Below, one piece after another: positions 13,114-31,918 of a DNA stretch of 33,448 bases. Every line of letters begins with the position of its first letter. Within the stretch, counting starts at the first letter, position 1. The DNA lies in IMG/VR virus record IMGVR_UViG_3300049255_000538, positions 1 to 33,448 of that record, one strand, 5' to 3'. This stretch comes from a virus. Both the position numbers and the translations under genes were made by a program. The notes under the pieces are model-generated. The model was not told the DNA's origin, did no database searches, and worked only from the letters and a program-made list of their open reading frames with translations.

Positions 13114-13872
13114 ATGGCCTACACCTCACCCAGCATAGCGCCTTCGGGCACAACCTTCGCCCAGTTCCAGGCGGGGGGAGCCAGCGGCATCCTGGAGCGA
13201 TTGATCGCCGCGAATTTCGCCGGGACCGCGGCCCCTGCCACCCCGACGATCTCCGCTACGAGCGGCGGCACCACTGGCGGCAACCTCGCCGCCGGCACCT
13301 ATTATGTCAAGGTCACCGAGAGCAACGGGCTCGGCGAGACGACCGCGAGCCCCGAGGTCTCCGTCACGGTTGCGGCCGGCAACATTCCGCAGGTCACGTT
13401 CGCGGCGCTACAGGCGGGCAACACCTCCCGCAACGTGTATGTCGGGACGACCAGCGGCGCGGAGGGCCTCTACGTCAGCGGTATCACGGCCGGGACATAC
13501 AACCTCTCGGCCACGATTCCGACCAACTCCTACGCGGTCCCCGTGCCGACGGTCAACACGACTGGCCTGACGAGTACGAACGCCACCACCGGGGTCGTGG
13601 CCAATCAGAAGCTCGCGGCGCTACGGGCGTGCGAGAAGGGTCGGCTGCAGGACGTCTGGAATAACGTCGCGGGGTTGGTCTCGCAGTTCAACCGGGGCGA
13701 GCCGGTCTCCTTCAGCAACGTGGTGTCGAAACTCCGCGATGCCCAGACCGTCTTCGCCGCCCTTACCGAGATCTGCGCCGAGATGGGTGCACTGATCGAC
13801 GCCAATCCCGGGCATTTTACGAATGTCACGACCGGAATCGGCGGTCAGAAGACCGTGCGACAGTGGCCCTGA
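13114..13872 (+). CDS. Virion protein with an FN3/Ig-like domain
   Basis: This encodes 252 residues. The first 40 residues form an N-terminal segment. Residues about 44-150 look like a beta-sandwich of the sort common in phage virion proteins: NLAAGTYYVKVTESNGLGET, then NTSRNVYVGTTSG and GITAGTYNLSATIPT. A short Thr/Asn linker leads to a helical C-terminal region (about 170-235) with KLAALRACEKGRLQDVW. A related [20 protein letters not shown] segment is present in the giant protein at 24277. It may be a head decoration or connector protein; exact role unknown. It starts directly after the preceding stop and is probably coupled. Confidence 0.6.
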   Translation: MAYTSPSIAPSGTTFAQFQAGGASGILERLIAANFAGTAAPATPTISATSGGTTGGNLAAGTYYVKVTESNGLGETTASPEVSVTVAAGNIPQVTFAALQAGNTSRNVYVGTTSGAEGLYVSGITAGTYNLSATIPTNSYAVPVPTVNTTGLTSTNATTGVVANQKLAALRACEKGRLQDVWNNVAGLVSQFNRGEPVSFSNVVSKLRDAQTVFAALTEICAEMGALIDANPGHFTNVTTGIGGQKTVRQWP

Positions 13873-14623: not shown

Positions 14624-15316
14624 ATGAGCAATCTGCCCTTGCAAACGACGCCCGTCTACTGCTCGGACGAGGACATCCTGGTCCATGCCGGGGGTGATTT
14701 CGCCACGCTCTGCCCACCGTGGCAGCAGATGGCCCAGGGAACCGACGGCGCCTTCGCCCCTGGGTCTCCCTGGATTCTGACTTCCGCTTCGGTCGACTTC
14801 GCCTCCAACGGCGTGGGCCCGAATCAGGTCGTGTGGCTGACGGCCCCTAGGACGCAATACCCCGGGGGCGGTCATTTCCTCGCGATCGATTCCGTGGCCG
14901 GCAACTCCATCACACTCCGACGGCCGTACAAGGACCTGAACGTCGGGATGCCGCCGGCGCCGGCGGGCGGGCTGACGGGCGTTGCCTTCGCGATCAATAC
15001 CCTCGACCCCCAGAGCGCCGAGGCGTCCTACGACATCAAGCAGCGTTTCGCCATCGACGACAACCCCGTGATCGGCGAACAGCGGGCATCGTCCTGGATC
15101 TATGACCTCCAGGTTCTGAGGGTCGCGACCATCTACACCGTCCTGCTCGAGCGGTACACGCAGGAGACACGGACCGAACGCGGTGACTTCGAGAAGAAAG
15201 TGGTCCGATTCCGCCAGAAACTCGATGACGCGCTGGCCCGCGTCCAGCTCCGCTGGGGCCCGTTCGGCAACTCCGCCGCGCCGGCCACGCTCTTCAGTTG
15301 CAAGCTCTCCCGCTGA
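14624..15316 (+). CDS. Head-tail connector candidate
   Basis: This is a 230-residue protein. It begins MSNLPLQTTPVYCSDEDIL, which resembles the start of head-tail adaptor proteins that carry a 'D-ED-I/L' segment. A beta domain follows (about 47-110) of the pattern seen in capsid and fibre proteins here: ILTSASVDFASNGVGPNQVVWL, then IDSVAGNSITLRRPYK. The C-terminal part is helical (DIKQRFAIDD..., ERYTQETRTERGDFEKKVVRFRQKLDDALARVQL). Order in the cluster (after capsid, before tail) is right for an adaptor; the family match is only moderate. Confidence 0.5.
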   Translation: MSNLPLQTTPVYCSDEDILVHAGGDFATLCPPWQQMAQGTDGAFAPGSPWILTSASVDFASNGVGPNQVVWLTAPRTQYPGGGHFLAIDSVAGNSITLRRPYKDLNVGMPPAPAGGLTGVAFAINTLDPQSAEASYDIKQRFAIDDNPVIGEQRASSWIYDLQVLRVATIYTVLLERYTQETRTERGDFEKKVVRFRQKLDDALARVQLRWGPFGNSAAPATLFSCKLSR

Positions 15317-15391: not shown

Positions 15392-15398
15392 AACGAAC

Positions 15399-15848
15399 AT
15401 GGCAGCTCTGCAAGGCCAAGTGTCTCTCGGCATGACGGCGCTGGTCGCCAGCACCCCCAAGACGGTCATCCGGGTCAAGGCGCCCACGAACCAGCGCGCC
15501 AAGGTCCTGGGCTATGGCTTCTACTTCGACGGTACGTCGAACTCGGCCACGCCGGTCCAGATCCAGATCGGCCGCATCTCTGCGGACGGTACGTTCACGG
15601 CCGCCACACCGCTGCCCAACGAGGAGGAGCTGACCGAGACCTTCCAGACCGCCGTGGGGGTCAACGCTTCTGCCGAGCCGACTTACTCAAACTACCTGAA
15701 GACTCTCACCGTACACCCGCAGCTCGGCTACGAATACCTGGCGCCGCTCGGCCAGGAGATCATCGTCAAGGGCGGCGGCATGCTGGGTTTCGTCGTCAAC
15801 GCCCCTGCGGCCGTGGACGTCCGCGGATACGTGATGTTCGAGGAGTAA
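15399..15848 (+). CDS. Virion protein, possible capsid decoration protein
   Basis: This encodes 149 residues starting MAALQGQVSLGM. The sequence is beta-rich with no charged coils: KVLGYGFYFDGTSNSATPVQ, then LTVHPQLGYEYLAPLGQEII and MLGFVVNAPAAVDVRGYVMFEE. A compact beta-sandwich is likely. It shares its leader with the major capsid gene, which hints at matched high expression, as would be needed for a decoration or other abundant virion protein. That role is inference; the family is not recognised. Confidence 0.58.
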   Translation: MAALQGQVSLGMTALVASTPKTVIRVKAPTNQRAKVLGYGFYFDGTSNSATPVQIQIGRISADGTFTAATPLPNEEELTETFQTAVGVNASAEPTYSNYLKTLTVHPQLGYEYLAPLGQEIIVKGGGMLGFVVNAPAAVDVRGYVMFEE

Positions 15849-15948: not shown

Positions 15949-16557
15949 ATGGCGGCACCAACCTACTCGGCCGGGACGCCCGGGAACGTCTTCAATAACG
16001 TGCCCTTGGCCGCCGGCGGCAGCAAGAACGTGGCCGCGCTCGTAGACCTCACGACGGTCGTGGGCGGCGCGTTGCATTGCAAGATGCTTACGGGCGCAAC
16101 ACCCCCGACCCAGGCCACGACATTCCGCTGCTTCCGCGTCTATGCCGCGACGGCGGCGGCGCCCTCTGCGATGCTCTCCGGCACCGCGACGGCCGGGACG
16201 ACATCGCTCCCGGTCAACTCATCCGCCGGTGTCTCCAGCGGCCAGCAGATTGCGATCGTGACGGCCGCCGGGCTGGTCGGGGAGATCGTGACGGTAACGT
16301 CCGTCTCGGGCACGACTTTGACGCTCTCGGCCGGGACTATCAACGCGTATTCGACCGGCGACCTGGTGTTCCTGGTCGAGCAGACTGCCTCGGGTGGCAC
16401 GATCGCCCCGGGTGGTTCGTGGGTGGCCAATGCGGTCTATAGCACGTCGATCTATCCCCCGGCCGCCTGGCTCTGGATCGTCCAGGCTGTCAATGCCGAT
16501 ACCGCCCAGTCGGTGACGGTCTCCGCGACAGTCGATAAGAATCCGTCCTTCCAGTGA
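15949..16557 (+). CDS. Fibre adaptor family protein A, copy 1
   Basis: This 202-residue beta-rich protein belongs to a family with three members in this window. Residues 1-65 (YSAGTPGNVFNNVPLAAGG, then LVDLTTVVGGALHCKM) and the C-terminal VTVSATVDKNPSFQ align with the gene at 23622 and the dead copy at 18926. Between them, residues about 78-145 form a separate beta domain of the TATAGTTSLPVNSSAGVSSGQQ... type that the dead copy lacks. Each intact copy stands directly before a LamG fibre gene, which suggests a small adaptor or chaperone for that fibre. The role is inferred from linkage only. Confidence 0.65.
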   Translation: MAAPTYSAGTPGNVFNNVPLAAGGSKNVAALVDLTTVVGGALHCKMLTGATPPTQATTFRCFRVYAATAAAPSAMLSGTATAGTTSLPVNSSAGVSSGQQIAIVTAAGLVGEIVTVTSVSGTTLTLSAGTINAYSTGDLVFLVEQTASGGTIAPGGSWVANAVYSTSIYPPAAWLWIVQAVNADTAQSVTVSATVDKNPSFQ

Positions 16558-16597
16558 TTCCCCACGTGTCACTTCTGATTAAGCGGGTCGATGACAC

Positions 16598-17437
16598 ATG
16601 CTCGGATCGCGATGGCCGCAGAAGCCTCCGGTGGGGACGTCGATCGCGCCGCCCTCGGGGTTGGCACAAGGGCTGGTGGCGTTCTGGGCGTTGAACGAGG
16701 GGACCGGCCTTCCGTTCGACACCGCATCGGGGCATCTGGCGGCGAGCAACAATGCGACGTGGACCGGCTCACCCTATGGCGCGGCCCTCGCGTTCAACGG
16801 CACGAACCAGTACGTCAACCTGGGTTCGAGCACACCCTGGCTGAACCTCACCGGGCCGCTGACCCTGGCCTGTCTTGCGGCACCGATCGCCGGATCCGCG
16901 ACGAACCAACAACTCATCGACGGCCACACGACGACGAACCAGGGGGGCTATCTCCTCGTCGTGAACACCTCAGGCAACAACGAGATGGACTATTACACCG
17001 TCCAGGGCGGGAGCGTCGCGTCGGCGGCCTCGAACTCCGGCGCGGCCGATGGCGGATGGCACGTCTTTGCTGTGAGCCACTGGAGCACCGCCGCGAATGG
17101 TGTGCAGTTCTACCGGGACGGCTACGCCTGGGGCACCGCGACTGCATCTTTCTTCGGCGGGTCGTACACCGGTCAGCGGACCCTGGGAGCCCGGACCGAT
17201 GCCGCCGCGAAATGGCTGTCCGGTGGTATGGCCTGGGCCGCGATCTGGTCGCGTGCCCTATCGGCCCAGGAGCACCTGGCGATGGCATCGAACCCGTGGC
17301 AAGTCCTCCGGCCGCAGCGAGACGTGGCAAGCATGTCCGCGGCGCGCTCGGGCGGCCGGGTCTCGTATCGGCGGGGGTCGTCGATCCTTCTCCCGCTTCA
17401 GCTTCCCACGGCCGATCTCTACTGCTACCTGGACTGA
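16598..17437 (+). CDS. LamG-domain (concanavalin-like) fibre or adhesin protein
   Basis: This encodes 279 residues. After a basic start (MLGSRWPQKPPVGTS), residues about 25-235 read as a LamG/concanavalin-like lectin sandwich: GLVAFWALNEGTGLPFDTAS, then ALAFNGTNQYVNLGS, GGWHVFAVSHWSTAANGVQFYRDG and AIWSRALSAQEHLAMASNPW. It aligns over this whole length with the first 230 residues of the giant protein at 24277. The C-terminal 40 residues are basic and Ser-rich. It probably binds host surface sugars as a tail fibre or decoration. It follows A copy 1, as the giant follows A copy 2. Confidence 0.75.
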   Translation: MLGSRWPQKPPVGTSIAPPSGLAQGLVAFWALNEGTGLPFDTASGHLAASNNATWTGSPYGAALAFNGTNQYVNLGSSTPWLNLTGPLTLACLAAPIAGSATNQQLIDGHTTTNQGGYLLVVNTSGNNEMDYYTVQGGSVASAASNSGAADGGWHVFAVSHWSTAANGVQFYRDGYAWGTATASFFGGSYTGQRTLGARTDAAAKWLSGGMAWAAIWSRALSAQEHLAMASNPWQVLRPQRDVASMSAARSGGRVSYRRGSSILLPLQLPTADLYCYLD

Positions 17438-17445
17438 GTTGACAT

Positions 17446-18810
17446 ATGGTCACTGTGCCGCCGCGTGAACTCTTCACCGGGCCGCAGCCCGGTGGAGGCC
17501 CGACTGGCACGGGCACGACCGGCGGGCCCGGCTCGTCGGTAGGTCCTCTGGGCTGGAGCCCGGCGAGACGCAAGCCGCGGTCCATCTGGCGCAGCGGATT
17601 CGCCGGACCAGGTTCGGGGCCGCCGACCGCCGGCCTCTCGGCAACGATCATCCGGGCCGAGGCATCGGTCCAGCCTCGGGCTGGGCGTGCCGGCATCCCT
17701 GTCGCGTTCCCGTCGCACGGCGCGATGCAGCCGCCGCTGAGGGGCCTCTCGATAGGGATCAGGAGAAGACCGACCGCAGGCCGAGTCTGGATGCCCGAGG
17801 GCGCAGCCCGTCCGCCCCAGTCGCCGCCGTTGCCATCAATGAGGCCTGTCTCGGCGCGAACTCGTTGGCGGCCCGGTCGGTCGACGCTCCGGGTCTTGCC
17901 TGCCGCGGTCGGCACAAGGCCGCCGCTCGTGCCCGTCGCGGTCGCGCGGCCCTCGCGCCGGGGATTGCCCGGCTTCGCCTCACCCGTTCGGTTCCCTGTG
18001 GAGATCATCGATTCCCTCTCGCTGCCGTACCACGGGACCCTGACCCCGACCGTGCGGCGGGGGACTACTCCGTGCCCGGCCGGCCGGACCTGGCCCTCAC
18101 AGTCTCCCTTCCGGGTCTCCACGCCCTCCGCGCTCCCCGGCACCACGGCCGTCCGCCGCCACGGCGACGACGCGGCAAGGCGGCGGATGGGCCGGCTGAT
18201 CCTCGGCCAGTCGATGGGGCTCGCGTTTTCGGGGCGATTGCATTATAATATCTATATAAATTCGGGATCCGGTGGCCCGGTGGATTATTCGGACCCGATC
18301 GGCGCCGTCATGACTACGACGTGGACGACGTCCGGGCTCGCGGCTCCGGGGACCTGGAGCTTCGGCGTCCGGGCGGCGGATGGGAACGGCGAGGAGGAGA
18401 ACCTCGACTGTGCCGTCACGATCGTGCTGGATGCTTCGGGCAACGACATCTCCGCCCGCCCGGCTCCTCCGATCGGGCTCCGAGCCTTCCCGCTCGCGGG
18501 CGGGGCGGTCCGGGTCGAATGGTACTATACTCCGGTCCGCGAGTCCGCCCCTGTCGGCTTCAACGTCTATCTCGGCCCAGGCGTGACTCCGAACTACGCG
18601 ACCCCGACCGCTGTGGTGGCGTATGGCTCCGGCCGCTTCAACACGTTCGTCGCCGATCTCTTGGGCTTGACGGACGGGATGGCCTACAGCATCGGCGTAC
18701 GTGCCTTCAACGCGAGCGGCGAGGAAGCCAACACCACCTCGGCGGGGGTCACCGCCGACGCCACAGGACCGCTGCCGGTGGATCTCCTGATCGCTACCGC
18801 TATCGTCTAG
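17446..18810 (+). CDS. Arg/Pro-rich stalk with C-terminal FN3-like domains
   Basis: This is a 454-residue protein in two contrasting parts. Residues 1-about 245 are Pro/Arg/Gly-rich with no hydrophobic core and loosely repeating RP/GR pieces. Residues about 255-454 contain two FN3-like domains, with TWSFGVRAADGNGEEENLDC and AYSIGVRAFNASGEEANTT as matching end strands and APPIGLRAFPLAGGAVRVEWYY as the start of the second. The junction coincides with an AT-rich patch (18241-18262) and an internal ATG (18187) that could start a separate FN3 protein. A decayed relative of the FN3 part lies at 19239-19791. Likely a fibre or appendage protein. Confidence 0.6.
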   Translation: MVTVPPRELFTGPQPGGGPTGTGTTGGPGSSVGPLGWSPARRKPRSIWRSGFAGPGSGPPTAGLSATIIRAEASVQPRAGRAGIPVAFPSHGAMQPPLRGLSIGIRRRPTAGRVWMPEGAARPPQSPPLPSMRPVSARTRWRPGRSTLRVLPAAVGTRPPLVPVAVARPSRRGLPGFASPVRFPVEIIDSLSLPYHGTLTPTVRRGTTPCPAGRTWPSQSPFRVSTPSALPGTTAVRRHGDDAARRRMGRLILGQSMGLAFSGRLHYNIYINSGSGGPVDYSDPIGAVMTTTWTTSGLAAPGTWSFGVRAADGNGEEENLDCAVTIVLDASGNDISARPAPPIGLRAFPLAGGAVRVEWYYTPVRESAPVGFNVYLGPGVTPNYATPTAVVAYGSGRFNTFVADLLGLTDGMAYSIGVRAFNASGEEANTTSAGVTADATGPLPVDLLIATAIV

Positions 18811-18925
18811 TCCTTTAGTACTTCACGGCTGGAAGCCGGGGGATCGAGCGACCTCCGCCGCCTCTGATTACGACGTTGGGCTCTTGAATTCCGCCTTCCG
18901 AGCACTCCAGAGAGTCCGATCCGCC

Positions 18926-19153
18926 ATGCCTTTGCCCGGATAGTCCGCCGGCTCGGCCGCAAACCTGATCAACGGTGTCTCGGTCGCCCACGGGACAATG
19001 ATCTCCGTGTTCCTCGACCTCTCGACGTGCATCGAGTGGCAGGTCTCGTGCGAGATGACCACCACGTCCGGCACCTAGTCGGGCAGCACAACGTTCGGCG
19101 TCGGCGCCAATTCCGTCACCGTCGGTGTGGAAGAGGTCAGGGCCTATCAGTGA
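18926..19153 (+). pseudogene. Dead third copy of adaptor family A
   Basis: This 76-codon stretch keeps one frame but has two TAG stops (18941 and 19076). It reads as [36 protein letters not shown] (in two runs), then VTVGVEEVRAYQ before the final TGA. It matches the 23622 protein ([45 protein letters not shown]). The central beta domain of about 100 residues is missing. The preceding 115 bases (18811-18925) contain nothing I can identify. TAG ends other genes in this window, so readthrough is not expected. Confidence 0.75.
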
Positions 19154-19238
19154 GTAAATCCAACACCCGATCCTCGACCACCGCCGCCACCACTGGGACT
19201 AGGCTACGTCAATCCTTGCGTGCGACGCCGGAACCGCC

Positions 19239-19791
19239 ATCGAACTCGCAGCCGTCGGGCTCGTCACCTGGGGCCACCAGGTCTACATGAGCCCGGCCGT
19301 CAACTCAGCCGATCGATTACACGACCGTCGTCGCGACGATCCTCGGGTTCGAGAACACCACCTGGACGAGATCGACCCTGGCGGTGAGCGGCGAGTGGTC
19401 TTTCGGCGTGCGGGCCTTCAACGATGCCAGCGAGGAGCAGAATCTCGACTGTTCCGTCACGGTTCTCTTCAGCCAATCAGGCGAGGATATCAGCACCATC
19501 CCCGCCCATCGATTGGGCTTCGCGCCATCCCGACCGCCGGCGCCGGCATCGAAGTCATTGGGCTACCCATCGACCAGCGGACCCGGGACGCCCACTCGGT
19601 TCTTCGTACAGCACGGCGATCGAGAGTGCCTATCAAGCCACGCTTAGCAGTGTCATCGGCACGGCTACACAATCGGGGTCCGGGCGGCGAACTCAAGTCG
19701 CAAAGAACAAAACGCGGCGACAGTGGTCGTGACTGGCGATGGCGTGGGTCTGACCGTCGTGACTGGCCTGAGCGTCACAACGATTCCATGA
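19239..19791 (+). pseudogene. Decayed copy of the FN3-like gene
   Basis: Pieces in three frames line up with residues about 255-454 of the intact FN3 protein at 17446. They are GHQVYMSPAVNS, then PIDYTTVVATILGFENTTWT, GEWSFGVRAFNDASEEQNLD, PSIGLRAIPTAGAGIEV, YPSTSGPGTPTRFFV, TAIESAYQATLSSVI and finally GYTIGVRAANSSRKEQN through VTTIP and TGA. At least four frameshifts separate these pieces, so no full product can be made. It directly follows the dead A copy, so a whole adaptor plus fibre segment appears to have been duplicated and then lost. The 19154-19238 stretch between the two has no recognisable content. Confidence 0.72.
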
Positions 19792-19858
19792 ATTACCGAG
19801 GCAGCATGGTCGCGTACAGTGTGGGGCTATTCGGTGGTAGTCTGAGGAATTCACGATA

Positions 19859-21508
19859 ATGAACTGGATAAACCGGAGATTCCGCAACCGTCTGGCCACA
19901 GTGGTGCTCGGCGCCCCAGCGCTGGCCACGGTCTCGCTCCTGATGGTCGAGTCGCTCGGCGGGCGGCCGCGGCCGACACACGCCGTACCCCGGACAGCGG
20001 CGCCGAAACGGCCACTCGTCGGCGACACCCAGGTTATCTCACAGTCGACTTCGGTCCGATACGCCTCGCAGGTCGGCTGCAAGGCCGACGGCGCCACCGA
20101 CTGCACTGCGGCTGTCCAGGCCGTTCTCGACACCGCCGGGGTCGCCGGCACGCCGGTGAGGTTCGTGTTCGACTCGGCCGGCGTCTATCTCATCGCGGGC
20201 TCGATCAAGCTCTGGAGCAACCAGGAGCTCGACGGGCTCGGCGTCGCGACCATCAAGAAGGGCGGGACCGGGGTTGGCGACTCCAAGCCGATCGTCACCA
20301 ACAAGCATTGGGTAGCCTATAGCACCGGATCGCAGACAGATCAATATGTGACGATACGAAATCTCTACGTCGACGGAAACCGCCGCGGCGGCGCGAGCAA
20401 CAACCCCAACAACCCGACGATGACCGCAAATTCCCCGCAGGGCTATGTGGTGCCGACGCTGGGGTTCTACGGGATCAACATTTTCCACATCGAGAACGTC
20501 CACGTCTACGACAGCCCGGCCTACGGCATGCAGCTCGGTTTCGCGACGAATGGCGTCATCATCAATTTCTCCAAGTATCTCGCGGCCGGCGACACCGTGC
20601 CGGGAGATGCGGTGATCCAGTGCCAGGGCGGCTGCTCGGACCTCTGGATGTACGGCCTGCACGGCACCACGAACGACGATCATGTGGCGTTCAACGCCAA
20701 CGATGGCAACGACATACCGGGCAACATCGCCACGTTCTGGCCTGGGTCGGTGCACTACGGGCCGATCAGCAATTGCGTCGTCAGCGACTCGGTGTTCACT
20801 CCCGGGGCGCTGAACGTGGGCAACATGGGCCGGTGCCTCTCGGCCAACCCCAGCGGGGCCCCGATCACCAATATCACCTGGCGGAACTGCACCGCGACGG
20901 TCCAGGATCGCGGGGTGATTTTCAATGACTTCACGATCTCGCCGGGCCTGGGCTGGTACGACGGGATCACGTTGGATAACTGCACCTTTTACGCGACCGG
21001 GAACCTCAACGACGGGGTGGTATGGGCATCGTCGGCCACGATGGGCCGGCTCACGATTCGCAATTGCCGGGTGATCCCGAGCGCCACGCAATCGAACGGC
21101 CCCCTGATCTGGCTCCTGTCCGGTTCCACGGTCGGCTCGCTCCTGGTCGACGGCTTTGACCTGTACGACCCGAGCGCCTACGTCACCAAGCCGATCGTCG
21201 GCCTGTTCGGCACCCTCACCGACGGCGAGCTCAAGTCGCTCCGCTGGAACCGGGGGACGGCATCGACCCTGTCGCAGCCGGCGATTTCCAGCACGGGCAC
21301 CGTCGGCCGCATCCGCGTGATCGGCGGGGCCTTTGACCGCATCTCGAACGTCGTGAACGTCTCGGGGGGCTCTCCCGTCGTGGTAGCGGCCGGCGTGACC
21401 CACACCAACGCGGGCGGCGGAAAATCCTTCACCTCGTCGGGCTCGGGCACCCTGACGTCGAGCTCGCTCATTACCTCCGCGATCGACTCGGCCTCTGTGG
21501 GACCTTGA
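19859..21508 (+). CDS. Beta-helix tailspike (pectate lyase-like), N-terminal membrane segment
   Basis: This is a 549-residue protein; TGAGGAA just upstream is the likely ribosome site. Residues about 12-33 are hydrophobic (ATVVLGAPALATVSLLMV) after a basic start, like a signal peptide or anchor, which is unusual for a virion tailspike. Residues about 64-110 give the typical entry to a pectate-lyase-3 type right-handed beta-helix: GCKADGATDCTAAVQAVLDT, then FVFDSAGVYLIAGSIKL. Repeating beta-helix coils follow (YVTIRNLYVDGN, FHIENVHVYDSPAYGM, ISNCVVSDSVF, ITWRNCTATV, GITLDNCTFYA, LTIRNCRVI). A Ser/Thr/Gly-rich C-terminus completes it. Likely binds or cleaves surface polysaccharide. Catalytic residues cannot be assigned by eye. 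Confidence 0.78.
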   Translation: MNWINRRFRNRLATVVLGAPALATVSLLMVESLGGRPRPTHAVPRTAAPKRPLVGDTQVISQSTSVRYASQVGCKADGATDCTAAVQAVLDTAGVAGTPVRFVFDSAGVYLIAGSIKLWSNQELDGLGVATIKKGGTGVGDSKPIVTNKHWVAYSTGSQTDQYVTIRNLYVDGNRRGGASNNPNNPTMTANSPQGYVVPTLGFYGINIFHIENVHVYDSPAYGMQLGFATNGVIINFSKYLAAGDTVPGDAVIQCQGGCSDLWMYGLHGTTNDDHVAFNANDGNDIPGNIATFWPGSVHYGPISNCVVSDSVFTPGALNVGNMGRCLSANPSGAPITNITWRNCTATVQDRGVIFNDFTISPGLGWYDGITLDNCTFYATGNLNDGVVWASSATMGRLTIRNCRVIPSATQSNGPLIWLLSGSTVGSLLVDGFDLYDPSAYVTKPIVGLFGTLTDGELKSLRWNRGTASTLSQPAISSTGTVGRIRVIGGAFDRISNVVNVSGGSPVVVAAGVTHTNAGGGKSFTSSGSGTLTSSSLITSAIDSASVGP

Positions 21509-21511
21509 ATT

Positions 21512-23218
21512 ATGTCATACACCGTCTATCTCAACGAGCCGTTCGCGGGGTCGTCGGGCACCATCCTGACGTCGCTGGCCGACGCGCTGTGGACGAACAG
21601 TGCCAGCTACGTAGCCGGGTCCAACGCCATCGAGGTCGATGGGAACGGCTATAGTTTCCTGTCGGGCGCCGACTCGGCCAACATCCCCAATGTGTCGATG
21701 CCCTTGACGCCGAACTTCGAGGTGTTCGTCGATCACAAGCGGTTGACCGCGCTGTCATCGGGCCAGACGGCCGGCGTCACTCTCTTCGTGTCGTCGCCGT
21801 ACGCCAGTTTCGCGACGAAATACTATCTCGGGGCCATCGAGCCGGGCCTCGCGGGTACTGGCGTCGCGTTTTTCAACGGCGCCACCGCGATGGGCAGCAC
21901 CGCCGCGCTGCCCTCCGTCGGGGTCAATACGAGGCTCCGCATCAGGGTCACGACGACCGGCGGCAACACGACCTTCCAGTGCAGCTCGAGCACGGACGGT
22001 GTCACCTACACCGACTTGGGGATCAGCGCGACCATCGCGACGCCGACGCAGCCCGTCGCGATCGGCCTCTATTATCAGAATCGGTCGGGCTCCGGCGGCT
22101 GGACGGCGACGACCGGCCCCCACCTGGGACGGCTGATCGTCGAGGACCTTTCGGCCACCACCGCGACACTCTCGATCGCGTCCGGATCGGGTGTGACCGG
22201 GACGCCGGTCCAGCTCACCGTCAATCTCGACCGGCCTGCGGGATACGGCGGCATCAGCGACCCGGTGGCCCAGGCCGGCGGGACCGGCACCCTATCGGCC
22301 GCCGCCGGCGGTCCGACCATCAGTTCGATCACGATCGCCCAGGGGGCGAGCTCCGGTAATTTCTGGTGGAACCCGTCGGCCGCCGGGACGGCCAGCATCT
22401 CGGACGGCCCGACGGCGCCGGTGCTGACGCTGGCGGGCTCGCCGCAGCCGTTCACGGCCGCGGCCACCGCTACCGGGTACACGATCTCGGGCGCGACCTC
22501 AGGGTTCGCCAACATCGCGACCGGCAACATCGTCGTGACGCCGAACGGGTACATCGCGAGCGACACCATCACGATCACGCTCGCGGGCGCATCCGGGTCC
22601 ATATCTTCCTCGACCCTGACCTTCACTGCCACCAACGCCGCCCAGAGCGTGACGTTCACCGGCGCGGCCGCCGGGACGGCCGTACTGACGTTCTCGAGTT
22701 CATCCAACCTGACGGTCGGCGGCTCACCGCTCGACCTGTCGATCGCGGCCAGCGTCACCTTCGACAGCCGCATCACGGGGATGGCGTCGGGGCAGACCCC
22801 CACGATCGTCCCCAAGACCTGGAACGGTTTCGCCTACTCGACGGTCGGCTCGGGCCTGTATTCCCTCGGCACGGCGGTAAACTCGACCGACGAGACCGAC
22901 TCCTACGAATGCCGGGTCACTTACGCGGCCTCGCAACTCCCGCCCGGCACGACGCCGCGCGTCGTCTGGACTGTCAACGGCGTCACGGCCGTCGACAAGA
23001 ACCCGACTGCGCCGTCGGTGCTGCTCGACGGCAATCTCAGCTTCGGCCAGGCGCTCAACCAGATCCTCGCCGGCATCTCGGGCGTCCTATCAGGCGTGCC
23101 GCCATCCGGCGCCGGCACGCTCGCTTATAAGTCTCCCGGCGGCGCACCTCGGATCGCGATGGGCGTGGACGGGACGGGCAACCGGACCTCGATCACGCAT
23201 ACACCCCCGATCGCGTGA
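21512..23218 (+). CDS. Fibre protein with lectin-like and Ig-like repeats
   Basis: This encodes 568 residues. Residues 1-about 215 resemble a concanavalin-like sandwich (MSYTVYLNEPFAGSSGTILT, then FEVFVDHKRLTALSSGQ and TRLRIRVTTTGGNTTFQCSS). Residues about 215-415 contain at least two Ig-like repeats sharing the pattern 'TLSIASGSGVTGTPVQLTV ... ITIAQGASSGNF' and 'GNIVVTPNGYIASDTITITL ... TNAAQSVTFTGAAAGTAVLTF'. The C-terminal part has another beta region and a Gly/Pro/Thr-rich tail. The start is four bases after the tailspike stop, so the two are coupled. It is likely a tail fibre or head fibre; the function in binding is inferred. Confidence 0.65.
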   Translation: MSYTVYLNEPFAGSSGTILTSLADALWTNSASYVAGSNAIEVDGNGYSFLSGADSANIPNVSMPLTPNFEVFVDHKRLTALSSGQTAGVTLFVSSPYASFATKYYLGAIEPGLAGTGVAFFNGATAMGSTAALPSVGVNTRLRIRVTTTGGNTTFQCSSSTDGVTYTDLGISATIATPTQPVAIGLYYQNRSGSGGWTATTGPHLGRLIVEDLSATTATLSIASGSGVTGTPVQLTVNLDRPAGYGGISDPVAQAGGTGTLSAAAGGPTISSITIAQGASSGNFWWNPSAAGTASISDGPTAPVLTLAGSPQPFTAAATATGYTISGATSGFANIATGNIVVTPNGYIASDTITITLAGASGSISSSTLTFTATNAAQSVTFTGAAAGTAVLTFSSSSNLTVGGSPLDLSIAASVTFDSRITGMASGQTPTIVPKTWNGFAYSTVGSGLYSLGTAVNSTDETDSYECRVTYAASQLPPGTTPRVVWTVNGVTAVDKNPTAPSVLLDGNLSFGQALNQILAGISGVLSGVPPSGAGTLAYKSPGGAPRIAMGVDGTGNRTSITHTPPIA

Positions 23219-23227
23219 GGCAACCCC

Positions 23228-23413
23228 ATGGCCGTCTCCAATAGCGGTCCGTTCCCGCAGGTCGCCTTCCCGGCGGTCGCCTTCCCGGCGGTCGCCTTCC
23301 CGGGCGCGGGCAAGGGCGCCCCAGCCAATCCGCCCGCGCATACGACCGGCGGCTCGCTCAAGTGGCCGTGCACCCGATCGTTCCGTCCGCGGCCTCGTCC
23401 GCGGCCCCGCTGA
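23228..23413 (+). CDS. Small low-complexity protein with VAFPA repeats
   Basis: This encodes 61 residues from an ATG nine bases after the preceding stop. Three tandem 15-base copies of GTCGCCTTCCCGGCG type (23259-23303) code VAFPAVAFPAVAFPG. The end is RPRPRPRPR, coded by tandem repeats too. The product is probably unfolded and basic. The function is unknown; it may simply be a linker or an unstable repeat region that stays open in this frame. Confidence 0.45.
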   Translation: MAVSNSGPFPQVAFPAVAFPAVAFPGAGKGAPANPPAHTTGGSLKWPCTRSFRPRPRPRPR

Positions 23414-23423
23414 AGAGGTCGCG

Positions 23424-23591
23424 TTGCCCTCCACATCGCTGCTCCGCGGCACGAAGTCGTATCTCGTCACCGTCTCCGGGGCCACCGCGCGGGACGGCAC
23501 CCCGATGACCGCACCGATCACCTTCAGCTTCACGCCCTCAGGCGGCAGCAACATCGGATATACCTCGATCGGCGCCCGCCGCGTCGCCTGA
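23424..23591 (+). CDS. 55-residue half Ig-like domain
   Basis: AGAGG (23414-23418) lies five bases before a TTG start at 23424. The product, starting LPSTSLLRGTKSYLVTVSGA, then ARDGTPMTAPITFSFTPSGG, looks like the C-terminal half of the bacterial Ig-like domain that ends 'Y-x-V-T-V-x-G ... P-x-T-F-S-F-T'. A complete domain would need about 45 further residues upstream. It may be a remnant of a larger fibre or a self-standing strand donor. It is followed by A copy 2. Confidence 0.45.
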   Translation: MPSTSLLRGTKSYLVTVSGATARDGTPMTAPITFSFTPSGGSNIGYTSIGARRVA

Positions 23592-23621
23592 AATCCACAT
23601 CTTCGCGAGGATACCGTTCCT

Positions 23622-24218
23622 ATGCCTTCGCCCGTCTATTTCGCCGGCACGCCCGGCAACCTAATCAACGGCCTCACCGTTGCCCACGGGACGACCGTCG
23701 CCGCGTTCCTCGACCTCTCGACGTCGATCGAGGGTCAGGTCTCGTGCGAGATGACCACCGGCGGCAGTGCTCTGTCGGGCGGGACGACCTTTAGCGCTTA
23801 CAAGGTCTACGGCAACGCGACTCCGATCACGCTGTCTTCGGCCGCGTCGTCGGGCGCCACGTCGCTTTCTGTCTCGTCCGCGACCGGCATCCACGTCGGC
23901 CAGAAAGTCTTGCTCCAACAGTCCAGCGGCGGGAAGCTCGGCGAGATTGCGACGGTCTCTGCGGTCAATAGCACGACCCTGACCGTCTCCGCAACGGCCA
24001 ACGGCTACTCTGTCGGCGACGGCGTGTACCTGATCGAGCAGACCGCGACCTATTCCACGGTGCCCAGTAGTTCGTCCGGGTCATGGTTGCCCAGCACCGA
24101 TTATTCGCTCCCGCTGTTTCTCGGGACCGGCCAGTGGTGCATCACGGCCGGCAACGGCGACACCACCAACTCCGTCACTGTCACCGTCAGCGTGGACAAG
24201 ATCACCGCCTACCAGTGA
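23622..24218 (+). CDS. Fibre adaptor family protein A, copy 2
   Basis: This 198-residue paralogue of the 15949 protein shares the N-terminal segment ([19 protein letters not shown], then [16 protein letters not shown]), a central beta domain ([19 protein letters not shown] through [12 protein letters not shown]) and the end [12 protein letters not shown]. It is even closer to the dead copy at 18926 ([24 protein letters not shown]). It stands 58 bases before the giant LamG protein. The pairing with a LamG gene at both loci suggests a partner role. No known family was recognised. Confidence 0.68.
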
Positions 24219-24276
24219 TCCGCCGCTCGGCCCGCCGCGTTATCCGCTTGCTTCGCCGATCGCCCGGAGCCTCCTC

Positions 24277-27200
24277 ATGTTCGATCGCCACTGGCACCAG
24301 AAGCCGCCCAGGGGTACGCAGCTCAACTTAGAGCATCCGCTGACGCGTGGCCTGGCGTCTTTCTTCCCGCTCTGGGAAGGCGAAGGCCCACCGGCTGACG
24401 TCGTCAGCGGCCGCGCGGCGAGCAGCAATACTGTGCCATGGGGCGGCTCATCCAAGGGCTGGGCGCTGTTCGGTGCCGGCGGCGACACCTGCATCGTCGC
24501 CAACGGCAGCTCGCCGCTAAACATCACCGGGCCGATCACAATTGCGGCCCTGGCGCGGCCGCAGACCGGATTCAACGGCCAGACGCTTTACAGCACCGGC
24601 TACAACGCCAGCATGTTCTCGGTGGACACCTACAGCGGCGTCCTCGCGATCAATTACGGCAACTCCGCCAGCAGCGGTCGGTCCAACTTCCTGACCCCCG
24701 ACGGCAACTGGCACACCTTCGCCATTTCCCAGGGGTCCGCCACCGGGGCCGTCTTCTACTTCGACGGCTACTCGGTGGGCACGGCGTCTTACTCGGGTTA
24801 CGCGCCGAGCTACACCGGCAACCGCTCGATCCTGGCCAACGACGACGGCTCGTATCCATTCTACGGGCCGATCGCGTGGATCGGCTTCTGGAACCGGGCG
24901 CTTTCCGGCCCGGAACACATCCTCCTGGCCACCGACCCCTGGCAGATCTTCGGTACCCGGAACACGGTCGCGGCGATCCCGCAGATCATCGTCCCGGGCT
25001 TCTCCGTCTCGGCCCCGGCCGTGCTCTATGCGGGCAATCCATCCACCACGCTCAGCCTGCTCGGATTCGACACGAACTGGAGCGGCGGCACGACCTTCAC
25101 CGTCTCCGGCGTCGCCGGGACCAGCAAGTCCTCGCAGGCGGTCATCGACATCAACCATGCGACGGTCGCCGTATCGACCGGCGCGGCCGCCGGGACGCTG
25201 ACGATCTCGGACGGCACCGAGTCGGCCACCTTCCCCGTTACGCCGCAGTCGATCGCGGCCGTGCCCTACACCGTCCCCGCGCATCACACCGGCCACATCG
25301 CCATCACGCTGACGGGCAGCGGCACGCGCTGGACCACGGGAACTACGACATTCAGCGTCTCGGGCGTCTCGGGCGTCTCGATCGTCGGTCAGTCGATCGC
25401 CTCGATGACTTTGGCCACCCTGACGATCGCGACGGGCTCCGGCACGGGCACCCTAGCGATCACCGACGGGACCAGCACGGTGCCGGTCACCGTCGCGACC
25501 GCCGGCCTGGCGGCCTCGCCGAACCCTGTCGCAGCCACCGGGCTGATCACCCTCACCGGCACGTCCACCGTCTGGACGCAGGAGACGGCCGCGAGCCTCT
25601 TCACGGCATCGGGCGTCTCGGGCGCCGGCCTGTCGGGCATCACGGTGCAGTCCGACACCCAGGCGACCGCGCTCCTGGCCGCATCGACCGCCACCGGCAC
25701 GATCACGATCATCGACAACAGCGCCGGCGCGACCGCGACCGCGACGGCCGACGCGCTCCCGGCGGGCTCGCTCCACCTGGGCACCCCGCTCCTGGTCGGC
25801 CCGTCGTCCTCCAGCACGCTGTTCGGCAACCGGGCCGCCGCCACGCTCGCGTTCCGGTTCAAGGTGAACAGCAATGCCGGCCTCAACTCGACCGGCGGCA
25901 CGCAGGTCGTCGCCTGGGGGACCAATGCGAACGGCGGCCAGCCGCTCGCCGTCTATTACCCCGCCAGCGGCCAGCTCACGATCACCGCCTATGGCGGCAA
26001 TAATAGCGGCTACTACGTCGACGCCTTCACAACCAGCATCCCGATCCAGCGCGGCGTCGGCTATCATATCCTGATATCCTGGGGCGCCACGCCGCAACTC
26101 TACGTCAACGGCCTCCTCTACGCCACCGCGGGGTTCTCGAACGTCGCGACCTTCCCCTACCAGCAGGTAAGGGTCGGCGGCAACGCCGGAGTGGGGATCG
26201 CCACCGATCACGCCGTCTCCGACATTTGCATCTGGAACGCCTACGCGGCGACGTCCTCCGACGCGCTCGGCCTTGCAACCGCGGCCTCGAGCCCGCTCCA
26301 GGTCGGCGGCACGCAGCCCGGCACGTCGTGCTCGGCCTGGTGGCCGCTGGGCGGCGGGACCGTCGGGAGTACTCCCTCGCTCTCCGACCAGTGGTTCGGC
26401 GATTACTCGGCCAATGGCAACACCCTGTCGGTCGTCGCGGGCACGCTCCCGGGCGGGACCTATGCGGCCGGGATCGGCCTGGGCTCGCCGTCCCTGGTCT
26501 CCGGCTGGGTACCGAAGTGCGGCAAACTGGCGATCTTCGGCGCCACGTCCTCGGTAGCCGCCGGCAACGGCGGCTATCCGGTCGCCCCGATCACGGCGGT
26601 CGGCGGCACGCCCGCGATCTCGCGCAACGGGACTCCAGTCTCGATCGGGCCGGCGACGTGGTTCTCGACCGACCAGGACACGCCGTTCGTGGCCTACCTG
26701 CTCCAGTGCGGGTCGGTGCAGGCGATCTCCAACGTGCTGCCCGGGTCGAATTACACGAACCCTACCGTCACCGCCTCGGGCGGCGGCGGCTCCGGCGCGA
26801 CGTTCGGGACGCCCGTGCTCAAGACGGGGGTGACCGGCTACACCATCCTCAACGGCGGCAGCTTCTCCGGCACCCCGGCCGTCTCGGTTGCCCCGCCGTC
26901 CAACGACTCGGGGCCACAGGGCGGGACCGCGGCCACGGCCCGAGCGACCGTCTCGGGTGGTACCCTCGCGACCGTCGTGCCGGCGTGCGGCGGCATCCTG
27001 GGCTGCGGGCAGGGATACTCCGCCGGCTCGCTGCCCACCGTAACGATCGGCCCGGGTAGCGGCGCGCAGCTCACCCCGGTCGTCTCCGGCGGCAAGATCA
27101 CCGCGATCAACGTGCCGTATGGCTACAGCGGCTCGGGATACCCTTCGGCGGTCCAGATCAATATCTGGGACTCGACCGGTACCGGCGCGACGGCCACCGC

Positions 27201-30200
27201 GACCATGACCGGGACGGGCGGACCCGGTCCGAATAACTATGGGATCCTGTCGGTCGCCGTCGGAGGCTCGGGCGGCTCGGGCTACACCAACCCAATCATC
27301 ACCGTCGCGCCGACGGGCAAGACAGCCTGCGTCCAGCCGATCCTCTCCACCTACATCGCGTCGGTCCCGGTCGCGAACGGCGGGTCGGGCTACACCTCGC
27401 TGCCCACGATTGCGGTGTCGGATCCCACCGGGACTGGGGCGACCTTCGTCCCGATCATGTCGGGCGTCTCCCCCGGCGACGCCATGACCTACGGCGCGCC
27501 GGCCGCCTGGATCACGCCCTCGATCGGCGGCCAGCAACTGGGCGGCCTCCAGGCGGTCTCAGGCGCGCACATGGACAACTGGACCGGGCAGCGCGAAGGG
27601 GCCAGCGGCGGCTTCGCGGCGTTCGCGCAGACCCCGACCATGCTGGCGGGCGTCAACGTGGGCGAGCAGCCGACGAATTACGCGCTGCTCCCCTTCACGG
27701 CCAAGAACCGGCTGCACCAGGGCGGCGGCTGGGGTGCGTCCGGCGGCGGCTCCCTGTCCAGCGCGAACGGCATCCCCGTCTCCTGGACCTCGCCCGCGAC
27801 CACGATCATCCAGGACTCGCTGTACGGCCCGAGCGGGCCGAATTACGTCGACAACTCGGGATGGCCCGATCAGGCCGGCCAGTGGACCGTCGAATACGAC
27901 GACTCGCAGGCCAACACGCCCGCGGCGAGCGCGTTCTGGCTCTATTGCCAGTCGCAGCTCGGCTACTCCTACATGACCGTCACGCCGGTCAACCTGTCCG
28001 GCCCCCATACCGGGAGAACGACAGGCGCGGTCAACACCGGGACCGTCTCGTACACCTACGGCGGCGGCCTCACGGGGATCACGCCCGGCGGTCTCGGCTC
28101 GGGCTACTCCGGCGCGACTGTCGTCATCTCCGGCGGCGGCGGCTCCGGCGCGATCGCGACTGCGATGGTCGCCGGGGGCGTCATCGAGTCCTTCCACATC
28201 GTCTGCCCCGGCACCGGATACAGCAGCGCCCCGACGGTCACGGTCTACGGGACGACGCTGTCCGGCACGACCATCACGGCCGTCATCGACATCGCCTACA
28301 GCGGCGCCAATCCGCCCATCTGGACATTGAACATCGTGGCCGCGGTGGCGGCGCCGGCCAATAACACCGGCGGCAACGACGGCAAGGCTTACTGGACGAT
28401 CGGCAATCCCTGGATCGTCGCGCCGAACGCGGCGACTGGGCTGGCCGTCGCCTCGATCGACCGGACCAAGGCGCTGGCGACCGACGACAATGCGATCCAG
28501 GCGCTCACGACCCCCAGCGGCAAGGTCCCGGGCGTGCTGCGGTTCATGGACGTGACGCAGGGGTACGGCGGGATCTCGAATTTCGTCTACGGCGCCGACC
28601 TGATGAACCCGAACCAGCCGGGCTGGCAGGGTCAGACGACCCTCAGCCCGACCTTCCAGTTCGTCCGCTACTGGAACACCAATCCGAGCAGCACCACGTA
28701 CACCTGGTCGAGCACGAAGGTCTACGGGCCGCAGGCGTATTTCGTCGAGACCGATGCCCCCTTCGCGATCACCGGCACGACGACCTCGGGATCGACCTCG
28801 GTGACCGGCATCGCGACCGGCTTAATGGTCGGCTCGGCGATCTCCGGCCCCGGGATCCCCTCGGGCACGATCATCGTGGGCCTGCGCTCCTCCGGCGCGA
28901 CCGCGATCCTCTCGCAGGCGGCGACCGCATCGGGGGCGGGGGTCACGCTGACGGTGACCAATCCCGGATATATCCCGCTTCCCCCCGGCGACAACGGATA
29001 TTTCGCGAACAACAACTATGGATCTCAGAGCTGGGCGGTGTGGGAGCTGCGATCGACGACGCCGCACGGGCTCTCCACCGGCCAGGTCGTCACCCTGAAC
29101 AGCAACAACAACGTCCTGCCGCTGACCAACCTCGGCAACTGGAATCCCAACGGCGGCACGACGTCTCCGATCTGGGTGACCGGGCCGTACACGATCGCTA
29201 CCACCGGTTACGTCGGCGGCAGCGCCCCGGCCTCCTCCCGAGCGCAGACCGTCAACTCCACGACCGAGATCAATTACTCGGGCGGCCAGGGCGGCGGCTG
29301 GTCGTCGGCGATGGTGTTGCCTTACAGCAACCATTGCGTGCCCTACGAATACTCGGCGGCGATGGCGGCGCAGCTCCCCGGCAGCGGCCTCTGGGTGAAC
29401 ATCCCGCACCCGGCATCCGACAACCTGATCGCGGCCATCGCGCAGAAGATCGCGGCCAACATCGGCCCGAGCAACATCATTTACGTCGAGCACGGCAACG
29501 AGAACTGGAACGGGGCGTTTCCCTACTATCTCTGGTACTGGAACCTGTCCACCCTGCTGGGCTACATCCCGCAGGGGAGGACGGCGATCAATTACTACAC
29601 CAGCACCGGCGGCGCCCTCCCCTACGACGCCTACGGCCCGGCGACGCTGCTCTCGGCGCACAGCCACGACGCCTTCATCGCGGCGTGGACCGCGGCGGGC
29701 CAGGACCCGTCGCGTGTCCGCCGGGTCATGGGCTCCTGGTGGAACGGCCCCTTCCGGACCCAGGACGTCGTGGCGGCCGCCGGGCAGTGGGGCTTCCAAT
29801 TCGAGCACATCGCGATCGCCCCATATTACACGCTGCCCAACGACAGCCCGGTCGTAGTCGCCCATACTCCGGCCGGGACGTCATACGCGAATGCCGGCAA
29901 CTGGCCCGTGGACGCGCTCAACGACCTGAACCGCCACTGGATCACCTACAACAGCACCAATCAATCCTACTGGAGCCAGCATGCTCAGTATACCCAGGCA
30001 TACGGCCAGCCGGTAGCCTCGGTCAACTTTACCGATTCCAACGCGATCGCCAATGCCTTCCTATCGCCGACCTCCATCGCCTCGGTCTCGATCGTCAGCG
30101 GCGGCTCGGGATATACCGGCCCGAGTGTGACGTTCAACGGCGGCGGGGGGACCGGGGCCACCGGCACCGCCGCGGTATCGGGCGGCGTCATCATCGGGAT

Positions 30201-31380
30201 CACCATCACGAATGGCGGATCGGGCTACACATCCGGTCCCGTGGTCAGTCTTTCCGATCCCAACGGTTCGGGATTCGCGGCGGGCGTGCTCCTGACCCCC
30301 ACCTCGGTGGCCTCGCTGTCCATCACGAGCCAGGGCGTCGGCTACCGGTCCGCACCTCAAGCGGTGATCACGAACCAGGACGGCCGAGGCTCTGGCGCCT
30401 CCGCCACCGCGACGATCAACGGCAGCGGGCAGGTCACGGGGTTCACGAATCTGGTGGGCGGCTCCGGCTACACCACCACGCCCAAGGTCACCATAACGGG
30501 CGGCGGCGGCGGCCTGGCCGCCGGCCAATACTACGCTTGCTTTACCTACGTGGATTATCAGGGGAATGAGACGACGATCGGCCTGAGCCGGGTCGGTTGG
30601 ATTGCGATAGGACCCGGCGACATCCCGACTTTCTCGATGCCTACCTGGCCCTCCTGGGCGGCCTCGATGAACATTTATTTGTCACCGCCCTACGGCGTGC
30701 CGGGGACAGAAGTCTTCTACATGAATGTCCCGCGGTCGGCGTACGGGACCACCTACCCGGTCGGTGCCCCTATCCCACTCAACGCTGCGATCCCGTCGCC
30801 CGGGACGCGGAAGCCCCCAGCTACCAACCAGGCGGCCGCCAATATCTCGAATCCGCCGAGCCTGATCACATACGAGGGTGGCGTCCAGACCGGCGTGCCA
30901 TTCGGCGTACCCTATTCGGACCAGCTCTTCCATGACACGTTCGCCCACCCGTCGCAGCGGGACCTGATCTGGGGATGGTACGCTTCGTGCCAGCTCGGTA
31001 ATCAGTCGCAGGCCGGCAGCGGCGCCGTCCTGGCAACGTATTATCAGCTCTACAACGGCCCGAATTACCCGTATACCTGGCAACTCGCATACGGGTGCGG
31101 CCAGCCGCCCGGCGATGGGACGTCGAACGCCTACCTCGGGTCGAGCGCCTACACGGTGCCCGCCAACCGGTTCGCGACCACACAGGGCGGCCTCCCGGCC
31201 GACAACCACGACCACAACGGAGGCCCGACGCCCAACACGTCTCCCGCCCTCCAGGGATTCCGCGATTGGTTCGAGGCGTCCTCACCGCTGCCCGTCCAGC
31301 CCACGCCGACGGGACGCGGTGGCCGTAACCGCCGCTGGTTCGCCGGATTGGCGCAGAATGCCATGCGGCTGGGGAGATGA
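24277..31380 (+). CDS. Giant multidomain fibre (2367 aa) with LamG, Ig-like, GSGYT repeats and glycosidase-like domain
   Basis: Domains in order: LamG-like 1-235, paralogous to the 16598 protein; three Ig-like repeats about 240-492; a second concanavalin-like domain about 498-670; GSGYT-type beta repeats about 808-1067; then a large region (about 1068-2310) resembling a TIM-barrel glycosidase. That region has NEN at 1741-1743 in [13 protein letters not shown] (Glu 1742 as likely acid/base) and YEGG at 2199-2202 (Glu 2200 as likely nucleophile). GSGYT repeat blocks are inserted inside it (about 1255-1345 and 1932-2082). The end is Arg-rich ([17 protein letters not shown]). It probably binds and cuts surface glycans as a fibre. 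The start follows a GGAG-type site. The enzyme family is uncertain. Confidence 0.78.
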
Positions 31381-31462: not shown

Positions 31463-31918
31463 ATGTCACGAGAACGCGACGTCCGCAACGCCCTGAGAGA
31501 CGCCTTGATACAGACCGGGGCGTTCTCACTCGTCCAGCTCACCGGCCTCCCGGAGGATTACGGGGAAGGGGCTAGCGACTTGACGGCAGCGGCGATCCAG
31601 CCGGGCTCGACGCGGCTACTCACCGGCTGGGACGCGGCCCCCGCAGGGGGCCGGACCTTCCTGTGCCAGCTCCTGGTGACGGTCCTGGCTCGGCATGCCG
31701 ATGCCGAGCTCTGCGACGAGCTGGCCGAGCAGCTCGTTGAATTCCTCCGCAACGTCGTTGACGGCCGGCCGCTCGTGCCCGGCTTCAACGAGCCTGAAGA
31801 GACCATGGTCACCGGCTGGCAATGGCTCCCCAGGACGGCTCCGGAGCGACGGATCGCCGTTACCGTGACTTATGACTATCTCCAAGACGGCTGGAACGAC
31901 GCCGACACATCTCAGTAA
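31463..31918 (+). CDS. Tail terminator candidate
   Basis: This encodes 151 residues, MSRERDVRNALRDALIQTGAF and onward. Small alpha/beta form: an N-terminal helix, a strand FLCQLLVTVLARHADAEL, a helix CDELAEQLVEFLRNVVDG, then a final strand pair ending RRIAVTVTYDYLQDGW. This matches the shape of siphovirus tail-terminator or tail-completion proteins, which sit just before the tail tube gene as here. The upstream spacer (31381-31462) has two weak 7-base repeats (TGGGATT, TCGGATT) and no other feature. The role is supported mainly by shape and order. Confidence 0.58.
   Translation: MSRERDVRNALRDALIQTGAFSLVQLTGLPEDYGEGASDLTAAAIQPGSTRLLTGWDAAPAGGRTFLCQLLVTVLARHADAELCDELAEQLVEFLRNVVDGRPLVPGFNEPEETMVTGWQWLPRTAPERRIAVTVTYDYLQDGWNDADTSQ

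Follow-up and report, generated by a model that had tools for sequence, protein, structure and literature searches.

A small partner gene linked to LamG fibre-like genes, in intact and decayed copies, in a phage-like element of Isosphaeraceae

How does one phage-like genome come to carry the same small gene in front of a fibre-like gene more than once, and what does that small gene do? The question is raised by IMG/VR record IMGVR_UViG_3300049255_000538, which we analyzed in its entirety (33,448 bases, with neither end repeats nor host flank; hereafter the window). An earlier note, made from these letters alone, had described a small beta-rich protein (A) preceding a LamG-domain gene twice. 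Both sets are present where the note placed them (Table 1). In the first, A1 stands before the LamG gene L1; in the second, A2 stands before a giant gene, G, which begins with a LamG domain. Comparison of the genes with those of relatives shows that A and LamG are linked and are gained and lost together. The pair probably forms part of the cell-binding apparatus of the particle.

The two sets resemble each other gene by gene. Over 205 columns, A1 shares 41% identity with A2 (E 1e-33 or better), and L1 is 39% identical to residues 1-234 of G (E 3e-40). The similarity that the note expected between the two pairs is thus significant for both A and LamG. L1 is a member of the Laminin_G_3 family (PF13385), scoring 38.4 bits against a curated cut-off of 27.6, and the LamG regions of L1 and G score 39.6, 43.8, and 29.1 bits against the same cut-off. 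The first 40 residues of the LamG fibre hold a conserved KPPxGT motif.

Beyond the window, A was found at 10 more loci (3 IMG/VR contigs and 7 Isosphaeraceae genomes), which gives three unrelated backbones in all. The note had asked whether every A homologue is followed by a fibre gene, or whether most are found alone. All 12 intact A genes, both window copies counted, have a gene with a LamG start 2-91 bases downstream; the number found without such a neighbor is 0/12. The A genes of G402 and G403, which lack the central module of the protein, are likewise paired. The pair is also present on two backbones, L005 and G421/L044, in which no homology to the structural genes of the window was detected, and it is therefore a transferable unit, a true cassette. 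A tblastn search of GenBank phages with A2, the LamG start, and the A protein of L005 gave no match; at this sensitivity those phage records lack the family. Scanning viral sequences with A2 by itself was likewise negative, and the viral A loci came to light only with a two-row alignment. Wide scans of a Planctomycetota sample and of the class returned, beyond the known loci, only matches of the inserted module inside larger proteins.

Joint gain and loss is seen in the island, which we defined as the segment from HC, a conserved protein of 230 residues, to the tail terminator. Regions downstream of HC were taken from Isosphaeraceae genomes and oriented. Among 20 complete islands, A and LamG are both present in 6 and neither is present in 14 (Fisher p 2.6e-5, relatedness ignored). 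Gain or loss of A-LamG on the backbone tree (HC) requires at least two changes. The gene behind L1 in the window, F, is found in nearly all islands; in islands of the X type, from close kin (L106, with L112 alike), a beta-helix protein occupies the slot before F. At 16.1 kb the window island is the longest of 14 measured (the others span 5.3 to 13.9 kb), because it holds two sets, a dead stretch, and two extra genes (19859 and 21512). A second displacement scar was observed in L011 (14960-15025), where a 22-residue remnant of D, the small protein encoded after HC, is 73% identical to it and adjoins an unrelated replacement small protein.

The two members of the pair evolve differently. The ratio of nonsynonymous to synonymous divergence (dN/dS) of A is 0.20 for G402/G403 and 0.28 for G002/G003. 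The values for LamG are 0.71 and 0.60, and that for the major capsid protein (MCP) is 0.12. A is constrained, and LamG is diverging fast. For the same genome pairs, dS of A and LamG is 0.60-1.24 (some values are near saturation), compared with 0.39-0.59 for MCP or HC. The higher values fit deep island alleles that were swapped into a younger backbone.

Between the two living sets lies a third, broken one. The note had described a third A copy with two TAG stops and its central domain lost. The stops are present, at codons 6 and 51 of this copy (A'), and the loss was understated: A' keeps about 58 N-terminal residues and the last 16, so that about 125 residues are gone. Together with the central module, a large part of the outer sandwich's C-terminal half has disappeared. 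A' is 66% identical to A2 over 44 residues (61.6 bits; the maximum in 100 codon shuffles was 23.1). The frameshifted FN3 gene reported behind it (F') is borne out: its frame is broken, and its similarity reaches 95.9 bits at most, as against 28.9 for the best shuffle. One set is indeed dead, given the stops and deletion of A' and the frame breaks of F'. Recoding of TAG was ruled out: the intact genes at 1589-2098 and 17446-18810 end in TAG, A' has lost about 125 residues, and F' has frame breaks.

The reading of this dead set depends on F. No Pfam FN3 match was obtained for F by sequence. A model of 18187-18807 nevertheless shows the FN3 fold, matching 4pln_C with Z 13.6 (100 residues aligned, 2.5 Å). 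Residues 33-454 of F are 44% identical to the homologue in G004, and this conservation ruled out the idea that the N-terminal half is non-coding. LamG, linker, and FN3 form a single open reading frame of 609 residues in L004, and the gene order A-LamG-F recurs in G004, G402, and G403. By fusion and gene order, F is a partner of LamG, not an unrelated neighbor. Accordingly, the most fitting reading of the dead set is A'-(LamG lost)-F'.

The note had seen in the three copies direct evidence of repeated duplication. For the living sets this is not supported. In a tree of the 12 A proteins, a sister grouping of A1 and A2 is rejected (approximately unbiased (AU) test, p 4e-5), and A1 is sister to the A protein of L014 (starred, support 99/98), to which it is 61% identical as against 41% to A2. 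When A' is added, it groups with A2 (91/85, not starred), and its grouping with A1 is rejected (p 3e-6). F' does not group with the neighboring intact F; the evidence here is weak (p 0.045), and the branch of F' is very long. The origin of the two living sets is thus mixed, and A' and A2 are the only copies that look as if one had been duplicated from the other in this lineage. That the living sets were nevertheless made by duplication within this lineage, and later diverged or were partly converted, we consider distinctly improbable in view of the rejected A1+A2 clade and the closeness of A1 to L014. The grouping of A' with A2 speaks for it, as does the LamG tree, which is poorly resolved and makes L1 and the LamG start of G mutual closest relatives here (89/91). 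The arrangement of the A tree is mildly disfavored by the LamG data (p 0.02-0.04). The conflict between the two trees therefore points to re-pairing or to partial homogenization of the LamG starts within the window genome.

The second set was said to have grown by grafting further domains onto the LamG start. The graft itself is confirmed. It is not specific to this genome: in G417 and G002 a KPPxGT LamG start is likewise fused to a giant homologous to that of the window (in G417 G has a full-length homologue, 36% identical over 2549 columns). G004, G402, and G403 encode LamG in a gene of its own, and their giant opens with an inner LamG-like domain. Window, G417, G002, and L009 form one starred clade in the HC tree. 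The LamG-giant fusion is therefore older than the window genome. G runs from the LamG start through further beta domains, a second LamG domain (about 514-654), and YTTPP-like repeats to a glycosidase-like region, a label given by eye where Pfam has no match.

The fold of A bears on its role. When the 12 proteins are aligned, an outer core can be told from a central module, and the module is an optional insert, since the A proteins of G402 and G403 (125 residues) lack it entirely. In the AlphaFold2 model of A2, two stretches (about 6-60 and 145-198) make up a beta-sandwich, and a small barrel at 62-141 interrupts it. For the barrel, matches were obtained to a module in the tail tube of phage Mystique (9n71; Z 11.4, 77 residues aligned, 1.7 Å), and also to the tailspikes 4ru4 and 7w1c and the VP1 capsid protein 9in6 (Z 8.5-11.4 overall). 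It therefore has the same fold as an inserted small beta-barrel of phage virion proteins, and in A it is optional. The sandwich resembles many viral, fibre, and carbohydrate-binding sandwiches. A1 and A2 gave no Pfam match at E 0.01, hence none to chaperone families, and PHROG matches were marginal and confined to the insert, in agreement with the remark that the family has no recognized name. A weak match to the A profile (E 7e-4) was noticed at 10133-10477 of L013, within the major capsid gene, which suggests that the inserted module of A occurs also in the capsid protein of L013.

On balance we judge it somewhat probable that A is the structural base or adaptor of the LamG fibre, near the head or neck on the particle. 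In the mechanism we propose, A would sit there, the N-terminus of LamG would dock on it via the conserved KPPxGT segment, and the LamG domain would bind a cell-surface glycan. New sets would enter the island, which we read as a site of fibre exchange, by recombination between related elements through conserved borders, and a displaced set would decay in place.

Could A instead serve the LamG fibre as its own folding chaperone or as a cap, off the particle or only transiently on it? The obligate 1:1 linkage of A to one fibre type, lost together with it, would suit such a role. Tfa-type chaperone genes come after their fibre gene. A lies upstream of the LamG gene in 12/12 pairs, unlike these, and it matches none of the chaperone families in Pfam. 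Its insert resembles modules of exposed virion proteins, and in G421 it stands directly behind the apparent major capsid gene. We regard a chaperone as unlikely, even though fibre-plus-chaperone modules common to unrelated phages are documented (PMC10579305).

The position of A just after the head genes, right behind the likely MCP in G421, would also suit a capsid decoration (cement) protein, whose adjacency to LamG would be a habit of gene order and not a physical partnership. Its sandwich is like that of the trimeric cement protein of KHP40 (7dou_4; Z 8.5, 111 residues aligned, 3.5 Å), a value within the range common to sandwich matches. However, 14 complete islands on the same backbone have homologous head genes and neither A nor LamG. 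We doubt this role and consider it improbable, because a cement protein that is essential should stay behind when the fibre is lost. D, the candidate decoration protein, was also compared with A; profile comparison found no similarity (hhalign probability 0.1).

Several points weigh against A as a fibre base. Its place on the particle, its complex with LamG, and the binding itself are steps that we infer. Sandwich matches with Z near 8 are common, and they neither fix the function nor prove a virion role. The pairing looks looser in reverse, since one LamG-FN3 fusion (L004) has no A directly upstream. The tree conflict may reflect re-pairing, which weakens strict pair specificity, and the non-planctomycete genomes reached by the search are few.

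The note took the window for a phage. That label is uncertain, as the element behaves as if inherited with its host. This evidence (copy number, RpoB, site) comes from relatives of the window. HC is present in 28/45 Isosphaeraceae genomes and in single copy in 27/28. Across 23 genomes, HC and RpoB distances are correlated (Spearman 0.75, 0/2000 permutations), with the same nearest neighbor in 14/23. Downstream, a gene for an M32 carboxypeptidase is common to G402, G425, G429, and one G427 copy, and a membrane-protein gene to G402, G425, and G002; upstream, G402 and G403 share their flank. In these relatives, then, a structural cluster is inherited with the host at one chromosomal site, as is asked of a gene transfer agent. 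In G402, G425, G429, and G412, no tyrosine integrase was found up to about 0.5 Mb away from the element; serine recombinases were not searched. Several genomes carry, at the element's downstream end, a gene for a sigma-70 factor and one for a pentapeptide-repeat protein (L102:14973-17579, G402; L103:14680-17196, G002).

A free phage accounts for this host-inherited pattern no better than a domesticated, gene-transfer-agent-like element would. Domestication would explain the retention of about 1 kb of dead genes. Tentatively, and with less confidence than we place in A as a fibre base, we suggest that the window is a copy of an unrecognized, host-inherited, putative gene-transfer-agent-like element across Isosphaeraceae, with the A-LamG island as the one fast-changing part, restocked by recombination among elements and deciding which cells are bound. 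In the literature, the nearest hint that we found comes from a Zavarzinella prophage: its terminase is placed close to those of RcGTA-like elements (PMC7947584).

All clear genes of the window are on the plus strand (Table 1). HC gave no match in Pfam or PHROG. Between portal and scaffold, in a place where one might look for a prohead protease, stands a subtilase-like gene (8342-9328; PF00082, E 6e-7). The protein at 13114-13872, after the capsid genes, shares a domain with residues 2068-2175 of G (30478-30801; 30% over 112 columns, E 0.002). The beta-helix gene, whose product has a hydrophobic N-terminus, and the gene for the 568-residue protein form an insertion that separates A2 from the dead set. 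Neither has a full-length counterpart in the islands of relatives that were compared. A defence role for them was considered and rejected, PADLOC giving no match.

Table 1. Features of the window, with positions in bases.
Feature	Position	Strand	Remarks
Large terminase	3398	+	
Portal	5143	+	
Scaffold	10510	+	
Major capsid protein (MCP)	11315	+	
HC, conserved 230-aa protein, left island border	14624..15316	+	connector-like by position only
D, small 150-aa protein, candidate decoration protein	15396..15848	+	92% identical in G417
A1, intact 202-aa partner protein, beta-sandwich with inserted module	15949..16557	+	
L1, intact 279-aa LamG fibre-like protein, KPPxGT N-terminal motif	16598..17437	+	PF13385
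F, 454 aa, variable linker then C-terminal tandem FN3 domains	17446..18810	+	
A', decayed A, TAG at 18941 and 19076, about 125 aa internal loss	18926..19153	+	
F', decayed tandem-FN3 gene with frame breaks	19300..19785	+	
Pectate-lyase-like beta-helix protein, 549 aa	19859..21508	+	Pfam PF12708; no homologue in the relatives compared
568-aa protein of unknown type	21512..23218	+	one local 97-residue match in L104
A2, intact 198-aa partner protein	23622..24218	+	model pLDDT 87
G (giant), 2367 aa, LamG start (1-234) fused to giant	24277..31380	+	
Tail terminator, right island border	31463..31918	+	phrog_123, E 0.0017; same place in relatives
Tube-like protein	31930	+	conservation and position
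Apparent start of tape measure	near window end	+	

For planctomycetes, whose phage biology is hardly studied, the locus is a concrete candidate for cell recognition, represented by matching alleles in intact, swapped, and dead form. It puts a name to a family of small proteins with an obligate lectin-like-fibre pairing that can be tested in the laboratory. The comparison also illustrates that genes which look duplicated within one phage-like genome may have been imported and differ in ancestry, something that relatives bring out and that stays hidden in a single genome. Should the element prove to be domesticated, the few listed host-inherited particle makers would gain one more lineage.

Among known systems, A-LamG is a further form of the fibre-plus-partner module, as the same pair stands in unrelated backbones (L005, G421). 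In Alteromonas phage A5/V22, a module of tail fibre and chaperone is common to distantly related phages (PMC10579305), and there too a fibre gene and its cognate small partner gene move as a unit. The partner in A5/V22 is a chaperone and the fibre a known receptor-binding protein, whereas here the partner precedes the LamG fibre and its role is a proposed one. L1 and the start of G belong to the ConA-like lectins of PF13385; here the domain comes after a conserved KPPxGT N-terminal segment and has a dedicated upstream partner. In the head spike of RcGTA, a pentameric base protein is joined by a flexible spike fibre that binds glycan and is held in place through its N-terminus (PMC10218006), and this spike offers a working model for A and LamG. 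A base plus a lectin-like fibre on a host-inherited phage-like particle is what we propose here as well; the likeness is one of proposed architecture, as the window element is known from its genes alone.

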